From Lachnospiraceae bacterium (GTDB lineage Bacteria > Bacillota > Clostridia > Lachnospirales > Lachnospiraceae), in assembly GCA_017542245.1 (NCBI GenBank), contig JAFXXN010000078.1, forward strand, positions 124,001 through 188,000: 64,000 bases of DNA. Direction: 5' to 3'. Within the stretch, counting starts at the first letter, position 1, and each line of letters begins with the position of its first letter. Shown here in pieces: positions 40,667-58,020 of the stretch. A model generated the notes under the pieces. It saw only the letters and a list, made by a program, of their open reading frames with translations. It had not been told where the DNA came from and did no database searches. The position numbers and the translations under genes were made by a program.

Positions 40667-42238
40667 TTATGTTCTTTCTATTTCACAAGTATGTTCTCCG
40701 GTTATTGCATCATAATTGATCCCGCAAAGAATGATATTTCCTTCAAATGGCTTAAGAACGGAAACGTACTTTTTTTTCTTGATCTGCTCGATTGCCCCTC
40801 CGGCAGTTTTATTCCACTTTAATTCGACTACCATGGCCGGTAATTTGGCAAGTGCTGTCGGAATAAAAATAACGTCTGCTATCCCCTTGCCACTTGGAAT
40901 TTCTTCTATTTTTACATATTTAGCAAGAGCTGACAAGAATGCATATTTTATAATAGCTCTTAATGATTGCTCATTATTATAATATTGTGGCGCATATTGT
41001 TCTTCTCTGATTTCCTGAAGAGCTTTGGCTACTTCTGATCCTTTTCCAGCTATTGCATCTTTAAGAATTTTGTTTGACCTTTTAATCAGTCTCATCCAGT
41101 GCTTGCCCACATCATCCTGAGCCAAAAAGTTCTTGAACTCCAGACGTACTTCCTCATTCGGAATCTTGACTGTTTTTCTTTCAGCATTATAAGTCAAGTA
41201 TCCTAAGTGAATAAGTAATGTAAGAACATCATCCTTTGATCCAAACCTTTCCAAATCATTTTGAAAAGCATTTGTATTTACCTCAGCTTCCGATCCGGCA
41301 ATAAGATTTGCAACTGTTTCCTGCAGACCCTCAAAATCCATTTTTATATAATCAGTAAGGCCTTCTGTTGCAGAAGTTTTCCCCCAAAATGACTCACATG
41401 CTTTTTTCTCCATAGCATTCATAACGGAATACGGATTATAAATAGATGTTTGACCTGTCAACTCATATCCATCATACCATGATTTCACTTCTTCAAATGG
41501 CATTTTATATTTCCTACAGATATGCTTGACTTCACTTTCTAAAAAGCCTGTGAATTTTGCAAATTGACTCGGGTGAAGGATTGAGTACTCCTTAAAATCA
41601 GAAATTGCTGACTGTGATCCATCCTTTTTTATAGGTAGGATTCCGGTCATATAGGCGGCGGCAACTGCTTTAGGAGTAAAATTGGAATTTTTGAACCATC
41701 CCCTAAGCAGATTCAGATAGGCTTCTTGTGCATCAGGTTCATCTTTGGCCTCTCTGATCATTGCATCCCATTCGTCTATTATGAAAACGAACTGTTTTCC
41801 GGTAGCTTCCACAAAACTAAGCAATCTGTCATTTGGGGTTTTACCCTTTATTTTCTTGGGAATTTCATCTTGAATCGCATCGACAATCCAGACGGGAACT
41901 ATATCCAAAGATTTCTTTAAACGTTTTGCTTCTGAAATAAATCCTGAAACATCAAGACATATTACATTAAGCTTATTCAGATAGTCTTGATACCCCTTTG
42001 TTCTGGCGATGTGCTTGTGATCAAATAGTTTATGGGAATCACAGGAACAGTCATAATAAGCTGTCAACATTTTCGCAGCCCATGATTTGCCAAAGCGCCT
42101 CGGCCTACTTATACAGGTTAACTTATTTTTCTTTCCGATTGTTTTATTAATCAAACTAATCAAACTTGTTTTATCTACATAGTCGTTATCATCTATTTCA
42201 GCAAAAGCCTGATTACCCGGATTCACATATGTTCCCAT
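40667..42238 (-). CDS. AAA-ATPase-like / PD-(D/E)XK protein
   Basis: The 523-residue protein begins with YVDKTSLI and the Walker A-like SRPRRFGKSWAAKML, then FVFIIDEWDAMI (Walker B), typical of the AAA-ATPase-like family. The C-terminal part (about 425-520) is a PD-(D/E)XK-type domain: GIADVIFIP, MVVELKWNK (E-x-K) and ILCGINYD. This architecture forms a large expanded family in Lachnospiraceae, Bacteroides and Fusobacterium, with unknown role. AAAGGAGG sits 11 bp before the start. It is the only leftward gene in this accessory block. Confidence 0.87.
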   Translation of the reverse strand: MGTYVNPGNQAFAEIDDNDYVDKTSLISLINKTIGKKNKLTCISRPRRFGKSWAAKMLTAYYDCSCDSHKLFDHKHIARTKGYQDYLNKLNVICLDVSGFISEAKRLKKSLDIVPVWIVDAIQDEIPKKIKGKTPNDRLLSFVEATGKQFVFIIDEWDAMIREAKDEPDAQEAYLNLLRGWFKNSNFTPKAVAAAYMTGILPIKKDGSQSAISDFKEYSILHPSQFAKFTGFLESEVKHICRKYKMPFEEVKSWYDGYELTGQTSIYNPYSVMNAMEKKACESFWGKTSATEGLTDYIKMDFEGLQETVANLIAGSEAEVNTNAFQNDLERFGSKDDVLTLLIHLGYLTYNAERKTVKIPNEEVRLEFKNFLAQDDVGKHWMRLIKRSNKILKDAIAGKGSEVAKALQEIREEQYAPQYYNNEQSLRAIIKYAFLSALAKYVKIEEIPSGKGIADVIFIPTALAKLPAMVVELKWNKTAGGAIEQIKKKKYVSVLKPFEGNIILCGINYDAITGEHTCEIERT

Positions 42239-43814: not shown

Positions 43815-43841
43815 TTAGCACTCCATAAAGCCGAGTGCTAA
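43815..43841. promoter_or_regulatory. CIRCE operator (HrcA binding site)
   Basis: TTAGCACTC (43815-43823), a 9-bp spacer, GAGTGCTAA (43833-43841): a perfect match to the CIRCE consensus. HrcA, encoded next, represses the operon here and is relieved by heat or by GroE shortage. Confidence 0.97.
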
Positions 43842-43913: not shown

Positions 43914-44951
43914 ATGGAGCTAGATGACAGAAAACTGAAAATACTCCAGGCGATAATAAAAAACTATCTGGAGACGGGCGAACCTGTAGGTTCCAGGACA
44001 ATTTCCAAATATACTGATCTAAATTTAAGTTCTGCAACTATAAGAAATGAAATGGCAGACTTAGAGGAATTAGGTTACATTGTCCAGCCACATACTTCCG
44101 CCGGTCGTATTCCTACTGATAAAGGGTACAGGCTCTATGTGGATACCATGATGCAGGAAAAGGTTAACGAAGTCAATAACATGCGGGACGACCTTTTGGA
44201 AAAAGCTGACAGAATGGAAAACCTTCTTCAACAGGTAGCAAAGATGCTGGCAGCAAATACCAACTATGCTACGATGGTAACCACTCCTAAGTACAGAAGC
44301 AGAAAAATAAAGTTCCTGCAGCTTACGGATGTAGATGAATATCAGGTACTGACGGTTATAGTGCTTGAAGGAAACATTGTAAAAAACAGGATGTTCAGAT
44401 CAGATGTAGCACTGGTAAAAGAAGATGTCCTAAAGCTAAACTTAGCACTTAATACCTTCTTACAGGGACTTGATATAGAAGAAATCAACATTGGGCTGAT
44501 ACAGAAATTAAAGAGTCAGGTTGGAGCATATCAGGAACTGGTATCCGAAATACTTGATGCAATAGCTACAGCCATCCAGGAAGAAGGCGACATAAGGGTT
44601 TATACCAGCGGAGCAACAAACATCTTAAAGTATCCGGAACTTTCCGATATGAATAAAGCCCGCGACATACTTTCTACATTAGAAAACAAAGAAGAGCTTA
44701 CACAGTTTGTTGACAGCGGCGAAATACAACCGGATGAAAAACGCGGTATTAAGGTTTATATCGGAGATGAAAATAAGGTAGATTCCATGAAAGACTGCTC
44801 GGTAGTTACGGCAACCTATGAGATAGAAGAGGGAATATATGGTAAGGTCGGCATTATAGGACCTAAACGTATGGATTATGAGAGAGTAGTCGGTACCCTT
44901 CAGAATATGATGGGACAGCTCGATGACATATTTAAAAATAAGAAGCCGTAG
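43914..44951 (+). CDS. hrcA: Heat-inducible transcription repressor HrcA
   Basis: The 345-residue HrcA has the winged-helix N terminus LDDRKLKILQAIIKNYLETGEPVGSRTISK, then LSSATIRNEMADLEELGYIVQPHTSAGRIPTDKGYRLYVD, followed by the GAF-like dimerisation region (about 110-330) and the terminal MDYERVVGTLQNMMGQLDDIF. It is the first gene of the operon and sits 72 bp after a perfect CIRCE site, so it represses itself and the chaperone genes. The order hrcA-grpE-dnaK-dnaJ is the standard Firmicute arrangement. Confidence 0.97.
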   Translation: MELDDRKLKILQAIIKNYLETGEPVGSRTISKYTDLNLSSATIRNEMADLEELGYIVQPHTSAGRIPTDKGYRLYVDTMMQEKVNEVNNMRDDLLEKADRMENLLQQVAKMLAANTNYATMVTTPKYRSRKIKFLQLTDVDEYQVLTVIVLEGNIVKNRMFRSDVALVKEDVLKLNLALNTFLQGLDIEEINIGLIQKLKSQVGAYQELVSEILDAIATAIQEEGDIRVYTSGATNILKYPELSDMNKARDILSTLENKEELTQFVDSGEIQPDEKRGIKVYIGDENKVDSMKDCSVVTATYEIEEGIYGKVGIIGPKRMDYERVVGTLQNMMGQLDDIFKNKKP

Positions 44952-45008
44952 CGATGTGAAAAGAAATCAATCAGAGAACTGTCCCGGTGATTGACTAGGA
45001 GGCATGAG

Positions 45009-45773
45009 ATGAGCAAGAAGAACAGAAAATATAAAGGAAATAATAAGGAGCACGAGATGGGCGACTTAAAAGAGAGGCTTTTAAAAGAATCGGTGGAGGC
45101 GGCTAAGAAGAAAGCCGAAGCGGATGCTAAAAAAGCTGAAGAAGAAAAGGAAAAAGCGGATAGCGATAAGAAAGAAAAAGACGCTGCGGAAGAGGTCGAA
45201 AAGGTTGAAGGTACTGTAGAGGATGCAGAGAAAGCCGATGACAGTGCTGAAAAAACAGAGACTGCTGATGAAGGAGCTGAAGGCGAACTGTCACCCGATG
45301 TTGACGCGACATCAATTAACGCAAAGGGTGAAGGAGACAAGAAAGATGCTAAGATAGCAGAGCTCAATGACCGCCTTATAAGGAACCTTGCAGAATTCGA
45401 TAACTACCGCAAGCGTACGGATAAAGAAAAATCCCAGATGTTTGAGATGGGTGCTAAGAGCATTATAGAAAAGATTCTTCCGGCAATAGACAGCTTTGAA
45501 CTGGGTATGGCAGCGATGAATGAGGAAGACAAAGCCTCGGGAGTAGGTCAGGGCATGGAAAAGATATATAAGCAGCTGATGACCATCTTAGAGGGCGCAG
45601 GAGTAAAGCAGATAGAAGCTTTAGGAAAAGAATTCGATCCGAATCTCCATAATGCGGTAATGCATGAGGAAAATGAAGAATTCGGTGAAAATACAGTATC
45701 ACAAGAGTTACAAAAGGGCTATATGTACAATGATTCAGTAATACGTCACAGCATGGTTAAAGTTGCCAACTAG
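45009..45773 (+). CDS. grpE: Nucleotide exchange factor GrpE
   Basis: GrpE releases ADP from DnaK. The core (about 105-254) shows ELNDRLIRNLAEFDNYRKRTDKEK, KILPAIDSFELGM and the closing VSQELQKGYMYNDSVIRHSMVKVAN. About 100 residues of Lys/Glu/Ala-rich sequence precede the core, longer than in most GrpE proteins (about 190 residues in total). The start is ATG 45009 after AGGAGG; an in-frame ATG at 45057 could give a shorter form. It is in the CIRCE-controlled unit. Confidence 0.96.
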   Translation: MSKKNRKYKGNNKEHEMGDLKERLLKESVEAAKKKAEADAKKAEEEKEKADSDKKEKDAAEEVEKVEGTVEDAEKADDSAEKTETADEGAEGELSPDVDATSINAKGEGDKKDAKIAELNDRLIRNLAEFDNYRKRTDKEKSQMFEMGAKSIIEKILPAIDSFELGMAAMNEEDKASGVGQGMEKIYKQLMTILEGAGVKQIEALGKEFDPNLHNAVMHEENEEFGENTVSQELQKGYMYNDSVIRHSMVKVAN

Positions 45774-45796
45774 TGACAGAAACGGTTTCAAAGTAA

Positions 45797-47779
<1,983 letters not shown>

Positions 47780-47853
47780 AAATTCTCTAAATATCTTAAA
47801 AATCCCTTAAAAATACGGATTTGAGTTGATAGAGATAAATATTACTGATATAA

Positions 47854-47889
47854 TAAGGGGCGTGTGGCAGGAAACTGCCCCGCCCTTAT
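47854..47889 (+). other. Long hairpin between dnaK and dnaJ
   Basis: ATAAGGG-CG arms pair with CGCCCTTAT, and the inner GGCAG pairs with CTGCC across a GAAA tetraloop. No T run follows, so it is more likely an mRNA processing or stability element, or a weak attenuator, than a full terminator. Confidence 0.55.
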
Positions 47890-47964: not shown

Positions 47965-49104
47965 ATGGCAGACAAGAGAGACTATTATGAGGTGCTTGGC
48001 GTATCCAGGGAAGCAAGTGCCGATGAAATAAAAAAGGCATACAGACAGCTTGGAAAAAAGTATCATCCGGATGTTAACCCGGGAGATAAAGAAGCCGAGG
48101 AAAAATTCAAGGAAGTCGGAGAAGCTTATGCAGTACTGAGCGATCCTGATAAAAGACGCCAGTATGACCAGTATGGCCATGCTGCTTTTGAAAACGGCGG
48201 CGCAGGCGGTATGGACTTCAGTTCAATGGATTTCTCGTCCATGTTTGGAGATCTTTTCGGCGGTCTGGGAGGTATTTTCGGAGATCTGTTCGGAGGCGGA
48301 CGTTCAAGCGGCGGCGCACAGCGTGGCGGAAATACCAGGATCAGGATACGCATAACCTTTGACGAAGCCATGAAAGGCGTAGATAAAGAAATAGAGGTTA
48401 ACCTGAAAGAGCAATGTGAAACCTGTAAAGGAAGCGGTGCAAAACCCGGATCTAAGGTTGACACCTGTTCACAGTGCGGCGGTAAAGGCCAGGTTGCATA
48501 TACAAGGCAGTCACTTTTTGGCATGACACAGAGCATACAGGCTTGTCCTCAGTGCCGTGGCGCAGGAAAGATAATTAAGGAAAAATGTTCCGCCTGCCTT
48601 GGAAACGGATACATTTCCAGAAAGAAGAAACTTTCTGTATCAATTCCCGCAGGTATTGATTCGGGACAGTGCATAAGGTTAGCAGGAAAAGGTGAACCGG
48701 GAGCCAACGGAGGCGGCTACGGTGATCTTCTTGTGGAAGTTGATGTTAGTGAACATCCTATTTTCCAGCGTGAGGGTATGAATATCTATTCAAATGCATA
48801 TATGAGCTTTGCTCAGGCAGCTCTCGGCGGAGATGTCAGGATCCCGACCATAGACGGTGATGTTCTTTATGAAGTAAAGCCCGGCACACAGACCGATACA
48901 AGGATCAGGCTGCGCGGAAAAGGCGTTCCTTCCATAAGGGATAAGTCCTACAGAGGAGATCACTATGTTAATCTCGTAGTTCAGGTTCCTACCAAGCTTA
49001 ATTCTGAGCAGAAAGAGCTCTTAAGAAAGTTTGATGACGCATATACAGGGAAAAAACCTGATGATGGCGGGGAGAAGAAAAAGAAGGGCTTTTTCAGTAA
49101 ATGA
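47965..49104 (+). CDS. dnaJ: Chaperone DnaJ (Hsp40)
   Basis: The 379-residue co-chaperone has the J domain ([24 protein letters not shown] with the essential HPD in YHPDVNPGD), a Gly/Phe-rich region ([20 protein letters not shown]), four zinc motifs of the CxxCxGxG kind ([32 protein letters not shown]) and the C-terminal substrate domain. The start at 47965 follows GGAGAGAAAAG. Its stop codon overlaps the ATG of the GTPase gene (ATGA), so these two are translationally coupled. Confidence 0.97.
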
Positions 49105-51845
49105 AAAGATTTGTAATAGGGATTCTGGCGCATGTTGATGCGGGAAAGACTACTCTTTCCGATATGATCCTATATTTAAGTAAAAGTATACGTAAACCGG
49201 GAAGGGTCGATAAAAAAGATTCCTTCCTGGATAGCTATGCTCTTGAAAGAGAACGAGGCATTACCATATTTTCAAAACAGGCTGTTTTTGAATATGGTGA
49301 TGTCTCTTTTACTTTGCTGGATACTCCGGGACATGTGGATTTTTCGACAGAAATGGAAAGAACATTAGCGGCACTTGATGCCGCGGTTCTTGTTATAAGC
49401 GGACCGGAGGGTATCCAGGCACATACGAGAACTCTGTGGAAACTTCTCAAAAGTTATGACATCCCGGTATTTATCTTTGTGAATAAGATGGACAGAGAGA
49501 CGGCATACAGAAAGGACATAGAACTTGAACTAAAGGAAGGCTTAAGTCCGAATTGTATTGACATGAACCCGTTGTTTGAGGAAACAGCAAAAAAAGATGA
49601 AACAGATAAAGCAATGGAAGAAATTTCTTTATGTGACGAGGGATTTCTTGAGAAGTATCTGGAAACCGGGAAAATCGATGATGAAGATATAAGCTTACTG
49701 GTAACTGACAGAAAACTTTTTCCGGTTATTTTCGGTTCTGCACTTAAACAGGACGGAGTTATATATCTGCTTGAAGCCATGAAGAGATTCCTTCCTGAAA
49801 TAGAGTATGATGATGACTTTTCGGCAAGGATATATAAAATTAACAGGGACGCTTCCGGAAACAGGGTTACATTTATGAAGCTGACCGGCGGAGTCTTAAG
49901 GACAAGGGACAGGATTGATTATACTTCCGATGGAGAAGAATACAGTGAAAAGATAAATGAAATAAGGGTATATAACGGAGATAAATACGAAAATGTTGAT
50001 ACCGCGGCAGCAGGAATGGTTGTCGGAGTTACGGGAATTTCTGCGTCTAAATCGGGCGGAATTCTCGGAGCAGAAACTGAAATACCTGAAAAAAAGCTGA
50101 TGCCGGTATTGATATACAGGGTTACAGGAAAGGATTTTTCGGGACTAAGGACTTTACTTCCAAAGTTAAAAGAATTAGAGGATGAGGAACCGCAGCTTCA
50201 TGTTTTATGGAATGATGAAACAAAAGAACTCCAGGTACGAATAATGGGAGAGATCCAGCTGGAGATTTTAAAGAGACAGCTTAAGGAAAGATTTAAAGAG
50301 GATGTTGAATTTGACAAAGGCAGCATAATATACAGGGAAACGGTTACAGGTCCGGTCCTGGGAATAGGCCACTATGAGCCGCTAAGACACTATGCCGAAG
50401 TACAGCTTGTCATCGAACCCGGAGAACCGGGAAGCGGTATAGTGTTTAAGTCACAGGTTTCTACGGATGAACTCGAACTTAACTGGCAGCGTCTTATAAT
50501 GACACATATTTATGAAAGAGAACATAAGGGATGCGTTATAGGTGCAGCACTTGATGATGTATGTATCACTCTTATTGCCGGAAGAGCACATTTAAAGCAC
50601 ACTGAGGGAGGGGATTTCAGACAGGCAACTTACAGGGCGGTACGCCAGGGACTTATGAGGGCGGTAAGTTTATCAAAAACAAAGATTTTAGAGCCTTATT
50701 ATGAGTTTATGCTTGAAATACCAAAGGAATCTGTCGGAAGAGCAATAAATGATATTGACAGACGATCCGGGAAGATAAAAGGACAGACTGAGTCACAGGA
50801 AACGGGTATGACGGTACTTACGGGAACGGCACCTGTTTCGGAGCTTATGGGATATTCAGCGGATGTGACGGCATATACCAGGGGACTTGGCATGCTGTAC
50901 TATAGTTTTGCGGGATTCGGGGATTGCCATAATGAAGCAGAGGTGATTGCTAAAACCGAATATGATCCCGAATCAGATATGAGAAATCCGTCATATTCCG
51001 TATTCTGCGCACATGGAGCAGGGTTCCCTGTAAGTTGGGATGAAGTGGATAATTATAAACACATAGATCTTAAGATGACGTTTTCTGAAGAAAATGGAAA
51101 GACATGGGTTTCCGAAAGTACAACAAAAGAAATATCGGTGGGTTCGGAACGGGAAAGCAGGACAGAGGACGTCTTCATATCCCGTGAAGAGGTGGATGCT
51201 ATACTCGGAAGGGCACTCTATGCAAATAAAAAAGAAGGGTATAAAAATCCTTTCAGGAAACATCGCAGGCAGCTTGATACATTACAGTATGGATATTCGG
51301 GGACAGAAAATCAGGATAGAAAATCAATATTAAAAAAGACCGGAGAACAGTCTCTGCCTGAATATCTGCTGGTTGACGGATATAATATAATATTTACCTG
51401 GCCGCACTTAAGAGAAATGGCAGAGATAAATGTTGATTCAGCCAGGGATATGCTTAACGATACATTATGCAATTACAGGGCCATGCATGACTGTGAGATT
51501 ATCGTTGTATATGATGCATACAGGGTTAAGGGACATCAGACCGAATATACAAGGTTTAACAATATTTGCATTGTGTTTACAAAAGAAGCTGAGACTGCAG
51601 ATCGTTTTATAGAGCGTTTTGCACATGACAATGCTTCAAAATACAGGGTGACAGTTGCGACAAGTGACGGTCTTGAACAGATAATCATCAGGGGACAGGG
51701 AGCCATGCTTCTTACTGCTATGGATCTGCTCAGCGAAGTTAAGCGTACGGATGAAAATATAAAGGAAAGATACCTGAACAGAAATGCCGGTGGAAAACTG
51801 ACTGATTCTTTAGCAATAATTGGGCATATAAAAGACATTAATTGA
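49101..51845 (+). CDS. TetM-like translational GTPase fused to a Rae1/YacP-like NYN nuclease domain
   Basis: The 914-residue protein has two parts. Residues about 1-690 are an EF-G-type GTPase of the ribosomal-protection class: G1 AHVDAGKTT (10-18), G2 [10 protein letters not shown]3 DTPGHVDF (74-81), G4 NKMD (128-131), G5 GSAL, then domain III-V sequence with [20 protein letters not shown] and a long extension ending in [17 protein letters not shown]. After a basic linker, residues about 752-914 form an NYN domain, [15 protein letters not shown] with Asp759, [20 protein letters not shown] and VATSDGLEQ, matching YacP/Rae1, a ribosome A-site mRNA endonuclease. Relatives without the tail confer tetracycline resistance; here a role in rescuing or clearing stalled ribosomes during heat stress is inferred from the operon. 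Confidence 0.87.
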
Positions 51846-51917: not shown

Positions 51918-53000
51918 ATGATGAGAAGGCAGATTTCTAAGTGTTTCATAAAGACAGCCTCAATTCTCTGTGCTACGTCTGTGCTGCTTGGAGGCTGCGG
52001 ATTATTCTCTGAAGAGGAGGAAAACCGCAGTATTTCCATAGTAAGAGAGAGCATGGAGAATGAATTTGACATTGTTCATTGTGAAAAACGTGATGTTATA
52101 AAGACAGGTTCGGTTTCCTGTTCATACAAACAGCTTATGGAAGAGAATCTGGCTTTCCCTGTAAGCGATAAAACAATCTCGTTCATTTACGTGAATGAGG
52201 GTGATGAGGTGAAAGTCGGCGACCTGCTTGCAAAGCTTGATGTGGCTCAATTGGAGAAGGATAATATAGAAATGAGGGAACAGCTTGAAAAGAATGAGTT
52301 TTTAATCGGACAGGCTGATGAAAAGATAGAGTTCTATGAGAAAAGACTCGAGTCTTCCGGAATAAGTCTTTCTGCAAAGGAGAGTTACCTTTCTAAGCTT
52401 CAGAGCTTAAGGGAGAAAAGAAGGGATTACAATGATGAGAATGAGTTTAACCGTATAAAGATTTCGGCCAATGAACAGCAGATTGAAGCCGGATCTCTAT
52501 ATGCGGGGATGGACGGAAATATCTCTTATATAAAAAATAACGTTGAAGGAAGTACATCCGTGGCCGGAGAAAAGGTGATCACGATTTTGAATTCAAGCGT
52601 GATCGGTTTTCAGGGGCAGGATAAGAATGCTCTGGCATTCATTAAAGAAGGAGATAAAGTAGTAATAAACTGCTCTACTATAGGTCAGTCATATGATGCT
52701 ACTGTTACTTCGGTGGATGCTGAAAGCGCAAAGATGGTTTTTGAACTTGACGAACCAGATTATTCGATAGCAGTAGGAACGAGAGGTATGATCACAGTTG
52801 TCCAGGAAGAGGCAAAAGGAGCTTTGTCACTGCCTAAGAGCTGTGTATTTGAAACCGAGGATTTTACATATGTTTATATTCTTAATGAAGACGGTGTGCG
52901 TGAAATGAGAAAGATCACGGCGGGAGTAATCGGAGATGAATTCGTTGAAATAGTCGATGGAATATCCGAGACCGAATCCGTTATTTTGCGTAAGAGCTGA
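51918..53000 (+). CDS. Lipoprotein membrane-fusion-type adaptor, ABC export cluster (1 of 3)
   Basis: The 360-residue protein has a lipoprotein signal with lipobox LLGGC (Cys27), a lipoyl/barrel-sandwich half (FIYVNEGDEVKVGDLLAKLD), a coiled-coil hairpin (about 110-185), the returning half (GNISYIKNNVEGSTSVAGEKV), a beta-barrel (VINCSTIGQSYDATVTSVD) and a C-terminal domain. This is the HlyD/MacA adaptor plan. In a Gram-positive it would sit on the outer face of the membrane with the FtsX-type permease. It is the first gene of a six-gene cluster, with 12 bp to the next adaptor. Confidence 0.85.
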   Translation: MMRRQISKCFIKTASILCATSVLLGGCGLFSEEEENRSISIVRESMENEFDIVHCEKRDVIKTGSVSCSYKQLMEENLAFPVSDKTISFIYVNEGDEVKVGDLLAKLDVAQLEKDNIEMREQLEKNEFLIGQADEKIEFYEKRLESSGISLSAKESYLSKLQSLREKRRDYNDENEFNRIKISANEQQIEAGSLYAGMDGNISYIKNNVEGSTSVAGEKVITILNSSVIGFQGQDKNALAFIKEGDKVVINCSTIGQSYDATVTSVDAESAKMVFELDEPDYSIAVGTRGMITVVQEEAKGALSLPKSCVFETEDFTYVYILNEDGVREMRKITAGVIGDEFVEIVDGISETESVILRKS

Positions 53001-53012
53001 TTTGGAGGTATT

Positions 53013-54065
53013 ATGGTTAAGAAGTTTTTGACCTGTTGCTTGTTTGCTGCATGTATTATGAGCATGACAGCCTGCAAGAGCGGGGAAAGTAATATCACAC
53101 AGGAAATAGAACTGCTGGAACCTATGAATGCCAAGCTTGAGACGACCTATGTAACGAAGATGGATATAAGTCAGGTAGAGCTTTATGACGGTGCAGTCAT
53201 TCCTTCTATGGAAGAGTTTTCTTTTGACGCCAACGGATATCTTTACGGTGTGTTTGTTACTCCGGGACAGAAAGTTTACGAAGGTGATGTACTGGCCGGA
53301 CTGGTAGGCGCCGATTATCAGACTATTCAGAACTTAGAGGAAGAAATAAAGGATCTTAAGGATTCCAGAGAAAAAGTTTTTAGTGGTTATGATACCGAAC
53401 TTGAGATTACAAAACTTAATGGCGGAGACGTATCCGAAAAAGAACTTGACACAAAACAGAAAAAGGATCTTTATGATTTCTCCCTTAAGCAGAAGGAAAC
53501 AAGGCTTGAGGAATTAAAAAAGAAGGATATTGGATATGTGTGCATAACAGCTCCTTATGATGCAACGGTAGTAGCTGTTTCATCTGCAAGGGAGAACAGC
53601 TATATTCCAAAGGGAACGGCAGTTGTTGCTCTTGATAACGGCGGAGATCCTCTCATTACATGTGATTATATTTCGGAGACCGCAATTTCGAAAATATATA
53701 CATGTTATGCACAGGTTCGAGGTCAGAAACTGGATCTTGAATATGTACCTTATACTAAAAACCAGCTTAAAATTATAGTTAATAACGGAGTTTCACCTGT
53801 TTCGAAGTTTAAGATCAACAATCTCAGTGACAAGGAGCTTTATGTAGGAGATTATGCAAGCGTGATCGTGGTAAAGAACTTCAAGGAAAATGTTCTTGCC
53901 ATACCTCAAAATGCTGTATATTCCGATACTACGGGCAGCTTTGTTTATGAAATAAAGAACGGGGAAAGAGTAAGAAGATCTGTTACATTGGGATTAAGTG
54001 ACAATGCCAATGTAGAGATAATAGACGGCTTGGAGGAAGGAGCGTGCGTTTATGTCAAGAGTTAA
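53013..54065 (+). CDS. Lipoprotein membrane-fusion-type adaptor, ABC export cluster (2 of 3)
   Basis: The 350-residue protein has a lipoprotein signal with lipobox MSMTAC (Cys21), a lipoyl half with GYLYGVFVTPGQKVYEGDVLAGL, a coiled-coil (about 105-170) and then YVCITAPYDATVVAVSS. The C-terminal beta-barrel ends with VEIIDGLEEGACVYVKS, as in MacA-like proteins. It differs enough from the other two adaptors to be a separate subunit, not a recent duplicate. The last 14 bp overlap the next gene. Confidence 0.83.
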   Translation: MVKKFLTCCLFAACIMSMTACKSGESNITQEIELLEPMNAKLETTYVTKMDISQVELYDGAVIPSMEEFSFDANGYLYGVFVTPGQKVYEGDVLAGLVGADYQTIQNLEEEIKDLKDSREKVFSGYDTELEITKLNGGDVSEKELDTKQKKDLYDFSLKQKETRLEELKKKDIGYVCITAPYDATVVAVSSARENSYIPKGTAVVALDNGGDPLITCDYISETAISKIYTCYAQVRGQKLDLEYVPYTKNQLKIIVNNGVSPVSKFKINNLSDKELYVGDYASVIVVKNFKENVLAIPQNAVYSDTTGSFVYEIKNGERVRRSVTLGLSDNANVEIIDGLEEGACVYVKS

Positions 54066-55173
54066 TCTTAAAATGCTTAAACGAATTGCCTGCATGCTGA
54101 TGATCGCCGCTCTTATGCTTCCTCTTACTGTTTCGGGACATGCCGCAGGCGACGATGTTTTGTACTTCGGTGCCTTGGAACAGACGGTGGCACAGAATGT
54201 TAAAACTACCGTTGTAGAAAAAGGCGAATTTTATATAACCGGTGCAATTCAGGCGAGTCTTGATTTTACAAGCAGTCAGTGGGTTTTCAATGATATCAGT
54301 GAAGGAACGGTTCATTTTCAGCAGTTCCTCGTAAGTCAGGGAGATATTGTTAAGAAGGGCGATCCCATCGCTGAGATCAGTGTAAGTGCTGACGAGATCG
54401 AGAAGGAAGAGGTTGAACTAAACCTTGAGGCAGCAAAGAGAAATCTTGAAGAGTATACAGCCGATACGATGGCACTTATCAAACAGTACAAAGCCGCTTC
54501 ACAACAGGGAAGTGAAAGAGACAGACGTCTTGCAGAACTCTCCTATGAAAGACTGATGAATACCTTTAAGACAGAGGTCGAGAAGAGAGAGAACAGGATA
54601 GATGAGTATTCTATAAGACTTGATGAGATTGAAAATCTTGAAAATACAAAATACATTAAGGCTACTACGGATGGTATAATAGGTTTTACCAACAGATTCC
54701 GTAAGGGTGAAGTTATAACAAACTGGACATTTTTATGCGTTATAAACGATCCTTCCCAGGTAAGAGTAGTGGTTGAAGGCGGTTCAGATCTGCTCAGATA
54801 CAATATGCCGGTTAAGATAGTAAGGTCCGGCGGTAACAGTAAGACAGTAGAATTGACAGGCCGGGTACTTACTTTGAAGAGTTCTGCATCTTCCGTAAAC
54901 CTTATGGCAAAGGATGATATTATAGAAATTTACGGAGATACATCGGATCTCAGACCCGGAGATGAAGTAAGCGTCAAGTTTGACAAGGTTTATGTTCCTG
55001 ATGCCCTTATGGTTACAAAAAGTGCTGTAAAATCTGACAAAAAGGGCAGTTTTGTGAATGTATTCATAGATGGTTTTTCAAGTAAGAGATATGTTGTTGT
55101 CGGCGGTGCCGACGGAATGAGAAGCTGGATTGTTTCGGGTGTTGAAGAAGGCGATATCATTATTCTCGAATAA
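54052..55173 (+). CDS. Secreted membrane-fusion-type adaptor, ABC export cluster (3 of 3)
   Basis: The 373-residue protein has an ordinary signal peptide (LKRIACMLMIAALMLPLTVSGHAAG) without a lipobox Cys. It then shows the adaptor plan: VHFQQFLVSQGDIVKKGDPIAEI, a coiled-coil (about 115-195), YIKATTDGIIGFTNRFRKGEVI, and a final domain with SWIVSGVEEGDIIILE. The start overlaps the preceding gene by 14 bp, so they are coupled; an alternative ATG at 54073 also precedes the signal peptide. It lies 12 bp before the permease gene. Confidence 0.82.
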   Translation: MSRVNLKMLKRIACMLMIAALMLPLTVSGHAAGDDVLYFGALEQTVAQNVKTTVVEKGEFYITGAIQASLDFTSSQWVFNDISEGTVHFQQFLVSQGDIVKKGDPIAEISVSADEIEKEEVELNLEAAKRNLEEYTADTMALIKQYKAASQQGSERDRRLAELSYERLMNTFKTEVEKRENRIDEYSIRLDEIENLENTKYIKATTDGIIGFTNRFRKGEVITNWTFLCVINDPSQVRVVVEGGSDLLRYNMPVKIVRSGGNSKTVELTGRVLTLKSSASSVNLMAKDDIIEIYGDTSDLRPGDEVSVKFDKVYVPDALMVTKSAVKSDKKGSFVNVFIDGFSSKRYVVVGGADGMRSWIVSGVEEGDIIILE

Positions 55174-55185
55174 AAGGGGATTATT

Positions 55186-58020
55186 ATGTTTCACTTAATG
55201 TTGCAAAAAATTCTGCATAAAAAATGGATGGCGGTAAGCCTTTTGATAGGTAATATACTGCTTGTTGCGATAGCGGTAAGCCATCCCATGTATCAGGATG
55301 CATCAAGAAACAGGATGCTTACGGATGAATTTATTAATTATATGCAGGATAATAATGCTTATCCGATGATCATTGATATTAAGGGTCTTACCAGAAAAAA
55401 TGCCGGTATTTCAGATACCAAGAGAACCAGGGAATTTGCAAATACCGTAGCAGAGCAGTTCGGATTGAGCGAGATAGAAAAAGTATGTGTGAGAGGACTT
55501 GTATCATCAACAGCTACGCCCACATCTATGTTCAATAGAGGCAGCAAGGAGTTTAAGCTTGTTGTAGGATGCATTTCAGACTTTGAAAATCATACAAAGA
55601 TAGTTTCCGGAAAGATGTATTCCGATGGAATAACCGATGATGGCTATATTGAAGCTGTTATCAGCCAGAGCGCAATGGTAGATTATAATCTGCTTATCGG
55701 AGAGGAAATTAATTTTAAATCCTTAAAATTTGCCGAAAAGGATATGGTAAAAATAAGGATAGTCGGAGTATTTACAAATTCAGAGGATAATGACAATTAC
55801 TGGGTTAATTCTCCTTCTACCTATAATAATTATCTGATGATCAGTCCTGCTCTTTTTGAACAGGGATTCATGTTAAATAACGGAGTTAAATATAATATCG
55901 ATGAGCACTGGTATACTTTACTTGATTATACTCAGTTAAGACCTTCTCAGATAGATAATATCATAGAAATAACCGATAAAGCTCTTGAGGAGAATAACGG
56001 AGTATACTGTAAAATGGCAACTCCCGATTATATAGATCTGCTTAAGGATTATGCGGTAAAAGAGAATCAGATATCCGTTACACTTGCTATTCTCCAGGTT
56101 CCTGTCATAGTACTTCTCTGTGCGTTCCTTTTCATGATCTCAAGGCAGATGCTTGAGATGGAAGAAAATGAAATAGCCATCCTGAAGTCAAGAGGTGCCG
56201 GAAAGCTTCAGATAATAAGACTGTATTTCCTGCAGTCTTCATTCTTAAGTCTTATCAGCTTCATCTTAGGTATTCCTCTCGGAAAACTGATATGCCGGAT
56301 TCTGGGTGCATCAAGTGCTTTCCTTGAGTTTTCTTCAAGAAGAAATCTGAGAGTGGAGTATTCGTTGGATGTTCTCTGGTATGGTTTGATAGCAGTATGT
56401 GTTTCTATGATAATGACACTGCTTCCCGTACTTAAAAAATCTACAGCTTCTATTGTTTCTGTAAAGCGTAAACGTTCGCGTCAGGCTAAACCGTTATGGC
56501 AGAAACTTTTCTTAGACGTGATCATGCTTGGAGTATCTATATACGGATACTATACATTCAGCTCACGTGAGGATGAACTGCTTTTGAAAGTTTTGGGAGG
56601 AGAATCTCTCGACCCGTTGATCTTTTTAAGTTCTTCACTTTTCATTCTCGGTGCAGGTCTTTTCTCACTGAGGATCCATTCGCTTTTTGTACTTATACTG
56701 TTTAAACTTGGAAAGAGAAAATGGAAACCAGCAAGTTATACATCTTTCTTACAGCTTATCCGTACAGGAAGCAAGCAGGCATTTATCATGGTATTCCTTG
56801 TTCTTACCGTAGCTTTCGGTATGTTTAATACTACCATAGCTAGAACAATACTTGCTAATGCTGAAAAGAATAACGATTATAATATCGGAGCAGATGTTGT
56901 TTTAAAGGAATACTGGAAGAACAATGCGGTCTATATGTCAGGACCCAATGCTTCAAATGAAGCTTCAAAGAATCTTACTCTTTCATATACAGAGCCGGAT
57001 TCAGGTAAGTTTAATGATATTCCTTCTCTTTATTCAATGGCAAAGGTATTTAAATCTGAAACAAGTACCGTAACCATTAACAAAGCGGAACAGGCTGTTA
57101 CACTTTTAGGTATCAATACAAAGACATTCGGTGAAACGACAAAGCTTGACAGTAATCTTTTGCAGTATGATTACAGAGAATATCTGAATGTTATGTCAAA
57201 GAACTCGGACGCCGTTCTGGTTTCGATGAATTTTAAAGAGAAGAAGGGTGTAAAGATAGGAGACCAGATAACATATAATGTCAGCGATGATATTATAAGC
57301 GGATCGGGTACGGGAATAGTTTACGGATTCTTTGAGTACTGGCCCGGATACAGCAAAAATAAGGTTATCATATCTGCTGACGGTTCTACACAGAACGAAG
57401 AGCAGTATATGGTAGTTGCCCATCTTTCCGCAGTACAGGAAAAAGTTGGAGTCCTTCCGTATGAAATCTGGATGAATATGGGAGGAAATACGGAAAGCAT
57501 TTACAGTTTTATAAATGATAACAATATTCAGCTTACAAAATTTGTTGATGCTGTTGAAAAGAGAGAGGCTATAAGCCGTGAAGCTCTGTTCCAGGGTACA
57601 AACGGTATTCTTACCATGAGCTTTATAACTATCCTGCTCATTTGCGGAATCGGATATATTATTTACTGGACATTGTCCATACGGTCAAGAGAGCTTTTGT
57701 TCGGTATATTCAGAGCAATGGGTATGGGAAAGAGCGAAGTTATTCATATGCTTGTAAATGAACAGGTACTTACCGGAGTTGTGGCTATAGTATTTGGACT
57801 TATCATAGGCTGGATTTCATCTAAGCTGTTTGTACCAATCATACAGATAGCATATTCCGCATCTGACAGATCACTTCCTCTTGAACTCATCACAAGGGAT
57901 TCTGATATAGCAAGACTTCTGATCATAATCGGTATAATGTTTGCCGCTTGTCTGGCAGTACTTATCAGACAGGTATACAGCATGAAGATATCACAGGCAC
58001 TTAAGCTTGGCGAAGACTGA
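55186..58020 (+). CDS. FtsX-like ABC transporter permease
   Basis: The 944-residue protein has a first TM helix (about 13-30), a large extracytoplasmic domain (about 32-295), a group of three TM helices (about 300-420) with the conserved EENEIAILKSRGAGKLQIIRLY, further TM segments to about 560, a second large outer domain, and a last group of three (about 805-935) with FGIFRAMGMGKSEVIHML. These two FtsX-type modules are typical of MacB/LolCDE-superfamily permeases, here fused in one chain. They use ATP from the inside to drive work on substrates outside. The substrate is not known; lipids, peptides or antibiotics are possible. Confidence 0.9.
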   Translation: MFHLMLQKILHKKWMAVSLLIGNILLVAIAVSHPMYQDASRNRMLTDEFINYMQDNNAYPMIIDIKGLTRKNAGISDTKRTREFANTVAEQFGLSEIEKVCVRGLVSSTATPTSMFNRGSKEFKLVVGCISDFENHTKIVSGKMYSDGITDDGYIEAVISQSAMVDYNLLIGEEINFKSLKFAEKDMVKIRIVGVFTNSEDNDNYWVNSPSTYNNYLMISPALFEQGFMLNNGVKYNIDEHWYTLLDYTQLRPSQIDNIIEITDKALEENNGVYCKMATPDYIDLLKDYAVKENQISVTLAILQVPVIVLLCAFLFMISRQMLEMEENEIAILKSRGAGKLQIIRLYFLQSSFLSLISFILGIPLGKLICRILGASSAFLEFSSRRNLRVEYSLDVLWYGLIAVCVSMIMTLLPVLKKSTASIVSVKRKRSRQAKPLWQKLFLDVIMLGVSIYGYYTFSSREDELLLKVLGGESLDPLIFLSSSLFILGAGLFSLRIHSLFVLILFKLGKRKWKPASYTSFLQLIRTGSKQAFIMVFLVLTVAFGMFNTTIARTILANAEKNNDYNIGADVVLKEYWKNNAVYMSGPNASNEASKNLTLSYTEPDSGKFNDIPSLYSMAKVFKSETSTVTINKAEQAVTLLGINTKTFGETTKLDSNLLQYDYREYLNVMSKNSDAVLVSMNFKEKKGVKIGDQITYNVSDDIISGSGTGIVYGFFEYWPGYSKNKVIISADGSTQNEEQYMVVAHLSAVQEKVGVLPYEIWMNMGGNTESIYSFINDNNIQLTKFVDAVEKREAISREALFQGTNGILTMSFITILLICGIGYIIYWTLSIRSRELLFGIFRAMGMGKSEVIHMLVNEQVLTGVVAIVFGLIIGWISSKLFVPIIQIAYSASDRSLPLELITRDSDIARLLIIIGIMFAACLAVLIRQVYSMKISQALKLGED

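Follow-up and report, generated by a model that had tools for sequence, protein, structure and literature searches.

Published accounts describe Rae1 as an endonuclease whose target is the mRNA within the ribosomal A site (PMC6613710, PMC12320835), a site that Tet-type proteins are reported to overlap (PMC8161019). A survey from 2015 (PMC4342817), which predates the Rae1 work, described clostridial 'Tet' proteins carrying an NYN domain like that of YacP in ten species and read them as possible antibiotic resistance through RNase action, so the GTPase-NYN architecture is already on record. We analysed 64,000 nucleotides of a Lachnospiraceae bacterium genome (assembly GCA_017542245.1, contig JAFXXN010000078.1, forward-strand positions 124,001 to 188,000; this whole stretch is hereafter the window), in which a gene at 49101..51845 on the plus strand encodes a GTPase of the EF-G type fused to a Rae1-type nuclease domain. 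In architecture and bacterial group it agrees with the 2015 set, to which it is in all likelihood related. Such a GTPase-Rae1-type fusion is present in many Clostridia, including gut species, instead of the separate Rae1 of related bacteria. The reading that we favour, with confidence evenly poised for and against it, is that the protein delivers its tethered NYN nuclease by way of the GTPase to stalled ribosomes, at whose A site the mRNA would be cut.

Domains and conserved residues of the GTPase-NYN protein

The gene starts with ATG and, by its open reading frame and Pfam matches, encodes 914 amino acids (features below lie on the plus strand unless marked otherwise). Its GTP-binding domain (GTP_EFTU, residues 5-232, 49113..49796; Pfam E 1.1e-51) has intact G motifs and precedes EF-G-type domains II to V (Pfam II, III, IV and C, residues 240-612, 49818..50936); G1-G4 motifs together with domains II-V place it among translational GTPases of the EF-G superfamily. 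By alignment, a C-terminal extension of the GTPase (residues 600-661, 50898..51083), whose motif includes W...H, is present in unfused members of the same subfamily and absent from Tet(M/W)-type rows. A linker that is mostly low-confidence in the model (residues 662-752, 51084..51356) leads to the Rae1/YacP-type NYN nuclease domain (residues 754-896, 51360..51788), recognised both by structure and by Pfam (NYN_YacP, 756-896, E 2.1e-47). Every Pfam match in the protein exceeds its curated cut-off, the NYN domain reaching 161.6 bits for PF05991 against a gathering score of 24.6, and the NYN part matches B. subtilis YacP/Rae1 (5mq8, 5mq9) with E 1.4e-24. Frame, Pfam and alignments thus agree with the initial annotation, made from the sequence alone, in describing an intact EF-G/TetM-type GTPase with a C-terminal NYN domain and its acidic residues. 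The NYN extent of 690-914 given there has to be revised to about 754-896; the model gives mostly low confidence to the linker, residues 662-752, and low confidence to the C-terminal end, 896-914.

Conservation was read from two alignments, one of 32 fused proteins (the window protein and 31 loci) and one of 81 (the window protein and 80 database proteins). The acidic set D759, D805, D834, E838 and D856 is invariant in 32 of 32 fused proteins, as are N762 and S855; in the larger alignment D759, N762, D805, D834 and E838 are invariant, and S855 and D856 are kept in 80 proteins with one gap. In the HMMER alignment D759 (51375..51377) stands opposite D7 of B. subtilis Rae1 and D834 opposite D81, which we take to be catalytic residues of that enzyme. 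On the GTPase side D13, K16, T17, G53, T55, D74, G77, H78, N128, K129 and D131 are invariant in both alignments, while S213 differs in 3 of 81 proteins and H11 in 1 of 32. A Foldseek search with the whole model returned only EF-G, EF-2 and relatives among the 50 matches listed, and the NYN domain was therefore folded separately. Modelled alone, it adopts the Rae1 fold, with 38% identity to Rae1 across 135 structurally aligned residues, so that this comparison, proposed in advance in the initial annotation, recovered the expected fold along with conserved acidic residues.

Subfamily position and the tetracycline-resistance label

The tip of domain IV, K499-F506 (KHTEGGDF, 50595..50618), is common to the GTPase subfamily in the alignment, KHTxGGDF being found in fused and unfused members alike except L082 and L140. 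Just ahead of it, H497 matches a His of EF-G, whereas the tip in five Tet(M/W)-type rows is YYSPVSTPADF or close to it, with Tyr where the window protein has H497. Two further Tet-like rows, L144 and L145, have a different tip, keep the His and score 603 and 561, below the Tet cut-off of 775. In a quick tree of 58 GTPases (with Shimodaira-Hasegawa-like approximate likelihood ratio support only), the 31 fused proteins, from 13 family codes, form one clade (support 99), which 17 of the 18 unfused proteins of the same kind adjoin, with L140 falling immediately outside the two groups. Seven Tet-like proteins (91) and two EF-Gs are placed apart. Judged from its sequence, the fusion GTPase belongs to a subfamily distinct from Tet(M).

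These features bear on the reading of the 2015 survey and of some database labels, that the protein confers tetracycline resistance and has gained a nuclease, which we regard as very improbable. Its domain order is that of Tet(M), its best NCBIfam model is tet_protect, and TetM is reported to tolerate tip-loop changes that include a triple S508A P509A V510A mutant (PMC4750697); since TetM with altered tip residues can still work, the contrast between KHTxGGDF and YYSPVSTPADF serves as supporting evidence and not as proof. Against it stand the separate clade and the scores: the window protein reaches 416 bits where tet_protect has a cut-off of 775, and 288 where the TetM/W model has 1100, and together with two more fused and two unfused members it spans 391-428 bits against the same 775. 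Tet-type genes of two genomes that also bear the fusion (G229 and G322) score 853 and 820 against 775 and exceed both NCBI Tet cut-offs (775 and 1100), so that both kinds of gene coexist, and fusion-length frames occur in 117 of the 140 family genomes sampled. Taken together, the scores, the tree, the tip sequence and the presence of Tet-type genes alongside the fusion led us to set tetracycline resistance low as the main function. The initial annotation had warned that the gene could easily be misread in this way; some sources do give homologues the label 'TetM/TetW/TetO/TetS family tetracycline resistance', and the window protein falls far below the NCBI cut-offs. The label, common in databases, is likely wrong for the fusion protein, and resistance surveys are affected where homologues of so widely kept a gene carry it.

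Distribution of the fusion, free rae1 and the Rae1 tail

In a family sample of 140 genomes (requested completeness at least 90%), 127 had an NYN match; the open frame is at least 516 amino acids long in 117 of these and below 300 in ten. The named homologues are mostly entered as 'Lachnospiraceae bacterium', and the sampled family is likely Lachnospiraceae. Counted by halves, 125 genomes held both, two the NYN domain only, none the GTPase only and 13 neither. The 13 genomes without both halves together include G027, G118, G149 and G153, and in the last three rlmB is followed directly by a sigma-factor gene. The class sample gave NYN matches in 100 of 147 genomes, 54 of them in frames of at least 351 amino acids under 20 family codes; all 54 also carry the subfamily GTPase, and no second NYN match was found in any of the 100. 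One of them, G232, was scored as fused on a 351-residue NYN frame beside a 588-residue GTPase frame, and Tet-like matches, as in G104 (33%) and in nine class genomes with such matches only, were not scored as the family GTPase. Of 149 genomes in the phylum sample, 11 had the family GTPase, its frames measuring 857-914 residues, which is fusion size; two further and more distant matches reached 35-36% identity. Pfam finds both domains in one protein in Ruminococcus flavefaciens FD-1, Intestinimonas butyriciproducens An565 and Butyrivibrio sp. NC3005, and precomputed domains make Anaerostipes rhamnosivorans a carrier as well. Among 80 named loci, the best 80 of at least 590, the NYN motifs share the frame in 78 and the domain IV tip is present in 78. 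Left out of a 21-genome test of the halves within the family were G083, where they are adjacent in two frames, and G128, where the contig ends; in G080 and G111 a second NYN piece at a contig end may represent either another copy or the remainder of the one gene, and in G160 both NYN pieces lie within one frame.

The window's own genome, whose record is 97% complete with 8.6% contamination, has a single NYN match. In an unfused relative (L053) Pfam reads the gene order as cysS, a ribonuclease III-domain gene, rlmB, NYN and a sigma-factor gene, and BLAST finds rlmB followed by NYN in G132, G067 and G293; in L043 (G098) the NYN gene sits in a different setting. None of the 14 fused genomes had an NYN gene less than about 1.5 kb from rlmB, and in eight of them the sigma-factor gene is the next frame (of at least 60 amino acids) behind rlmB; in G330 the rlmB frame is masked by an overlapping frame, no NYN frame was seen there, and the sole NYN match is the fused one. 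The fused copy therefore takes the place of the free one. G293 has two unfused copies of the subfamily GTPase (L060 and L061) alongside its free NYN gene behind rlmB. Unfused subfamily GTPases also occur in four genomes without an NYN match (L062, L134, L135 and L136 in G255, G213, G216 and G241), which suggests that the GTPase may also serve some function in the absence of Rae1.

That the free NYN gene of relatives adjoins a ribonuclease III-domain gene and the rRNA methylase gene rlmB would suit a part in rRNA or ribosome maturation, in which the GTPase would be an assembly factor and the NYN domain would trim rRNA; a 2006 proposal, cited in PMC4342817, had indeed given the NYN domain a role in rRNA and tRNA maturation. 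The fusion gene lies outside the rlmB operon, B. subtilis Rae1 is described as a nuclease of A-site mRNA (PMC6613710, PMC12320835), and we think this explanation clearly improbable.

The fused forms differ from free Rae1 at their C-terminus. The B. subtilis Rae1 chain aligns through an LEKxRR-type tail to residue 168, and free NYN proteins show this tail in 25 of 31 cases by a strict pattern and 28 of 31 by a looser one, against 3 and 7 of 32 in fused loci; the pattern was devised after the tails had been inspected, and its wording misses some of them. The window protein has no tail motif, and its match to Rae1 stops at residue 140. Among the named loci, 74 of 80 were readable, with 7 strict and 19 loose matches, and the 120 closest relatives among the database proteins listed gave 0 and 15. 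Individually, the tail is absent at 51789-51842 of the window and in L063, L071, L074 and L081, and partly kept in L022, L026 and L067. In B. subtilis the tail change R166P came out of a selection as one of the mutations interpreted by the authors as rae1 loss of function (PMC6613710). Since the tail that carries R166 is eroded in fused forms, the GTPase may have taken over docking on the ribosome.

The two halves are joined by a linker that varies from 72 to 160 residues across fused proteins and contains a short conserved helix (695-707), in which E697 and I701 are each kept in 31 of 32 proteins. Its length would allow the halves to work independently, as in an alternative without delivery, where the NYN domain would cut A-site mRNA by itself as Rae1 does and the EF-G-like half would then move, split or recycle the truncated ribosome, the fusion thereby linking cleavage to clean-up. 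EF-G-like action would fit the match of H497 to the EF-G His, against Tyr in the five Tet(M/W)-type rows, and four of the eight unfused GTPase carriers in the class sample have no NYN match at all; the eroded tail, which suggests that the nuclease half no longer docks alone, counts against this alternative, and we rate it as unlikely, though deserving attention. The variable linker would equally suit two ordinary proteins that work apart and share one chain by chance, but the fusion occurs under 20 family codes, its GTPases form one clade from 13 codes, the linker helix is kept and the Rae1 tail is lost, and a merely neutral linkage seems highly improbable.

Genomic setting, proposed action and relation to known systems

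The initial annotation had noted that the fusion overlaps dnaJ (47965..49104, a reading frame), and its ATG and the dnaJ stop do share 4 bases. It had also assigned the pair to an operon controlled by the CIRCE operator (controlling inverted repeat of chaperone expression). A CIRCE copy with 0 mismatches lies at 43815..43841, ahead of hrcA, grpE and dnaK (43914..47779; reading frames, named by eye and not by family search), where shuffled sequence gives a mean of 0.02 matches in a search allowing up to 3 mismatches. CIRCE control is uncertain for the dnaJ-fusion pair, given its own promoter-like site with a hairpin leader 5' of dnaJ (47826..47888), shared with seven close relatives. This site, TTGATA-17-TATAAT with an extended -10 at 47826-47854 between dnaK and dnaJ, has 11 of 12 matches. 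Of 16 dnaJ-linked loci, 15 have a readable leader: eight, the window included, show TTGA..-16/17-TATAAT with an extended -10 and 10-11 of 12 matches, L019 and L021 have a 10-match site without the extended -10, and the remaining five reach at most 8. As the region holds 16 promoter-like sites in total against 17.2 in shuffles, no excess, it is the conservation of the site and not its presence that counts. The hairpin at 47858-47888, immediately 3' of this site, recurs in the dnaJ leaders of L002 and L004-L009; 5 of its 12 predicted pairs are altered on both sides across the eight sequences, and it may serve as a leader that stabilises the transcript or mark where the dnaK unit ends.

Surveyed more widely, as the initial annotation had suggested, the fusion proved widespread and its dnaJ neighbour confined to one genus: dnaJ lies directly upstream in 16 of 22 loci of the window's genus, with the 4-base overlap in 10 (plus L020 if its start codon is so chosen); of 28 loci from other genera, 0 have it there. 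Expression together with dnaJ, and with it the tie to stress, is thus the habit of one genus, and dnaJ or heat stress was rejected as a defining link. Elsewhere in the window, upstream of the hrcA operon, 40667-42238 on the minus strand encodes a predicted AAA-ATPase with a PD-(D/E)XK nuclease end (PF09820, PF08011). Downstream of the fusion (51918-58020) lie three genes that look adaptor-like by eye, the first without a Pfam match, and an FtsX-type permease; a 360-residue neighbour on that side is kept in nine loci of the genus.

For the delivery of the nuclease by its GTPase, we infer the following course. The GTPase would bind the ribosomal factor site in the manner of EF-G/TetM and, with the Rae1 tail gone, would do the docking for the whole protein. 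GTP hydrolysis would pull domain IV back, and the NYN domain, on its tether of about 70-160 residues, would enter the vacated A site and cut; the ribosome left behind would be rescued by transfer-messenger RNA (tmRNA), which is encoded in the window's genome. We hold more tentatively, a little short of even confidence, that the protein is a self-delivering no-go nuclease: in a large part of the Clostridia the only Rae1 would be built into a dedicated translational GTPase, which would itself recognise stalled ribosomes, clear the A site and pass the mRNA to its own tethered nuclease, with GTP hydrolysis gating cleavage. The initial annotation had put forward A-site clearing and mRNA cutting under stress; domains, residues and the Rae1 fold fit the first part, and the heat component is narrowed by the genus-bound dnaJ link.

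Several points weigh against delivery. In fusion-free class genomes, 4 hold both halves, 4 the GTPase only, 42 the NYN domain only and 43 neither (Fisher p 1), so the GTPase can occur where Rae1 is missing and most Rae1 occurs where the GTPase is missing, and the strong association of the halves at family level is mostly the fusion itself. That the two halves always travel together holds in the family and fails in fusion-free class genomes; because these show no tie, our case is not built on co-travel. Fused NYN domains do not form one clade in the NYN tree (3 changes), although one clade is not rejected (approximately unbiased test, p 0.222), and a single fusion event, favoured by the GTPase tree, is not borne out by the NYN tree. 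The whole-protein model has a predicted template modelling score of 0.55 and linker values of the predicted local distance difference test mostly at 31-52, and its relative placing of the two halves is not meaningful. Ribosome binding, GTP hydrolysis and RNA cleavage are predicted activities, and the order of steps and the substrate are likewise our suppositions. Domain IV and the NYN domain are unlikely to fit the A site together, and the order given above is for that reason a guess.

If delivery is right, these bacteria would handle stalled ribosomes with a GTPase and a nuclease in one chain, and the way in which Rae1 locates its ribosomes would become directly testable, as the fused GTPase would reveal the place and the moment of nuclease docking. 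On the more tentative self-delivering reading, a GTP-driven A-site endonuclease widely kept in gut anaerobes would have gone unnoticed behind a tetracycline-resistance label.

Of known systems, the 2015 clostridial set is nearest, and the available part of that account (PMC4342817) does not give the replacement of rae1, the clade apart from Tet(M/W), the GTPase's own tip or the lost tail. In the literature listings searched, that paper alone was seen to mention the fusion; a 2018 paper may already have it, as its title concerns Rae1 distribution. B. subtilis Rae1/YacP shares the NYN fold and the kept acidic residues, but it is a free protein of about 170 residues encoded beside an rlmB homologue, whereas here the domain is the C-terminal part of a GTPase, lies away from rlmB and has mostly lost the tail. 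Because it is fused, lacks the tail motif and leaves no NYN gene behind rlmB, the window protein carries a Rae1-type domain yet is not classed as Rae1. Unfused subfamily GTPases of about 650 residues (L044 and L060, for example) have the KHTxGGDF tip and a C-terminal SVFC-type motif as the fusion does, but no NYN domain; some of their genomes have a free NYN elsewhere, and none was found in others. Tet(M) and Tet(O) have the same EF-G-like five-domain GTPase and presumably act at the same ribosomal site, but identity to Tet-type rows is about 30-33%, clade and tip differ, and the window protein has extra C-terminal parts. In eRF3-eRF1 and Hbs1-Dom34, an EF-Tu-like GTPase brings a separate A-site partner that is not an mRNA nuclease, and the fusion resembles them in principle only, as a GTPase that would deliver an A-site actor.
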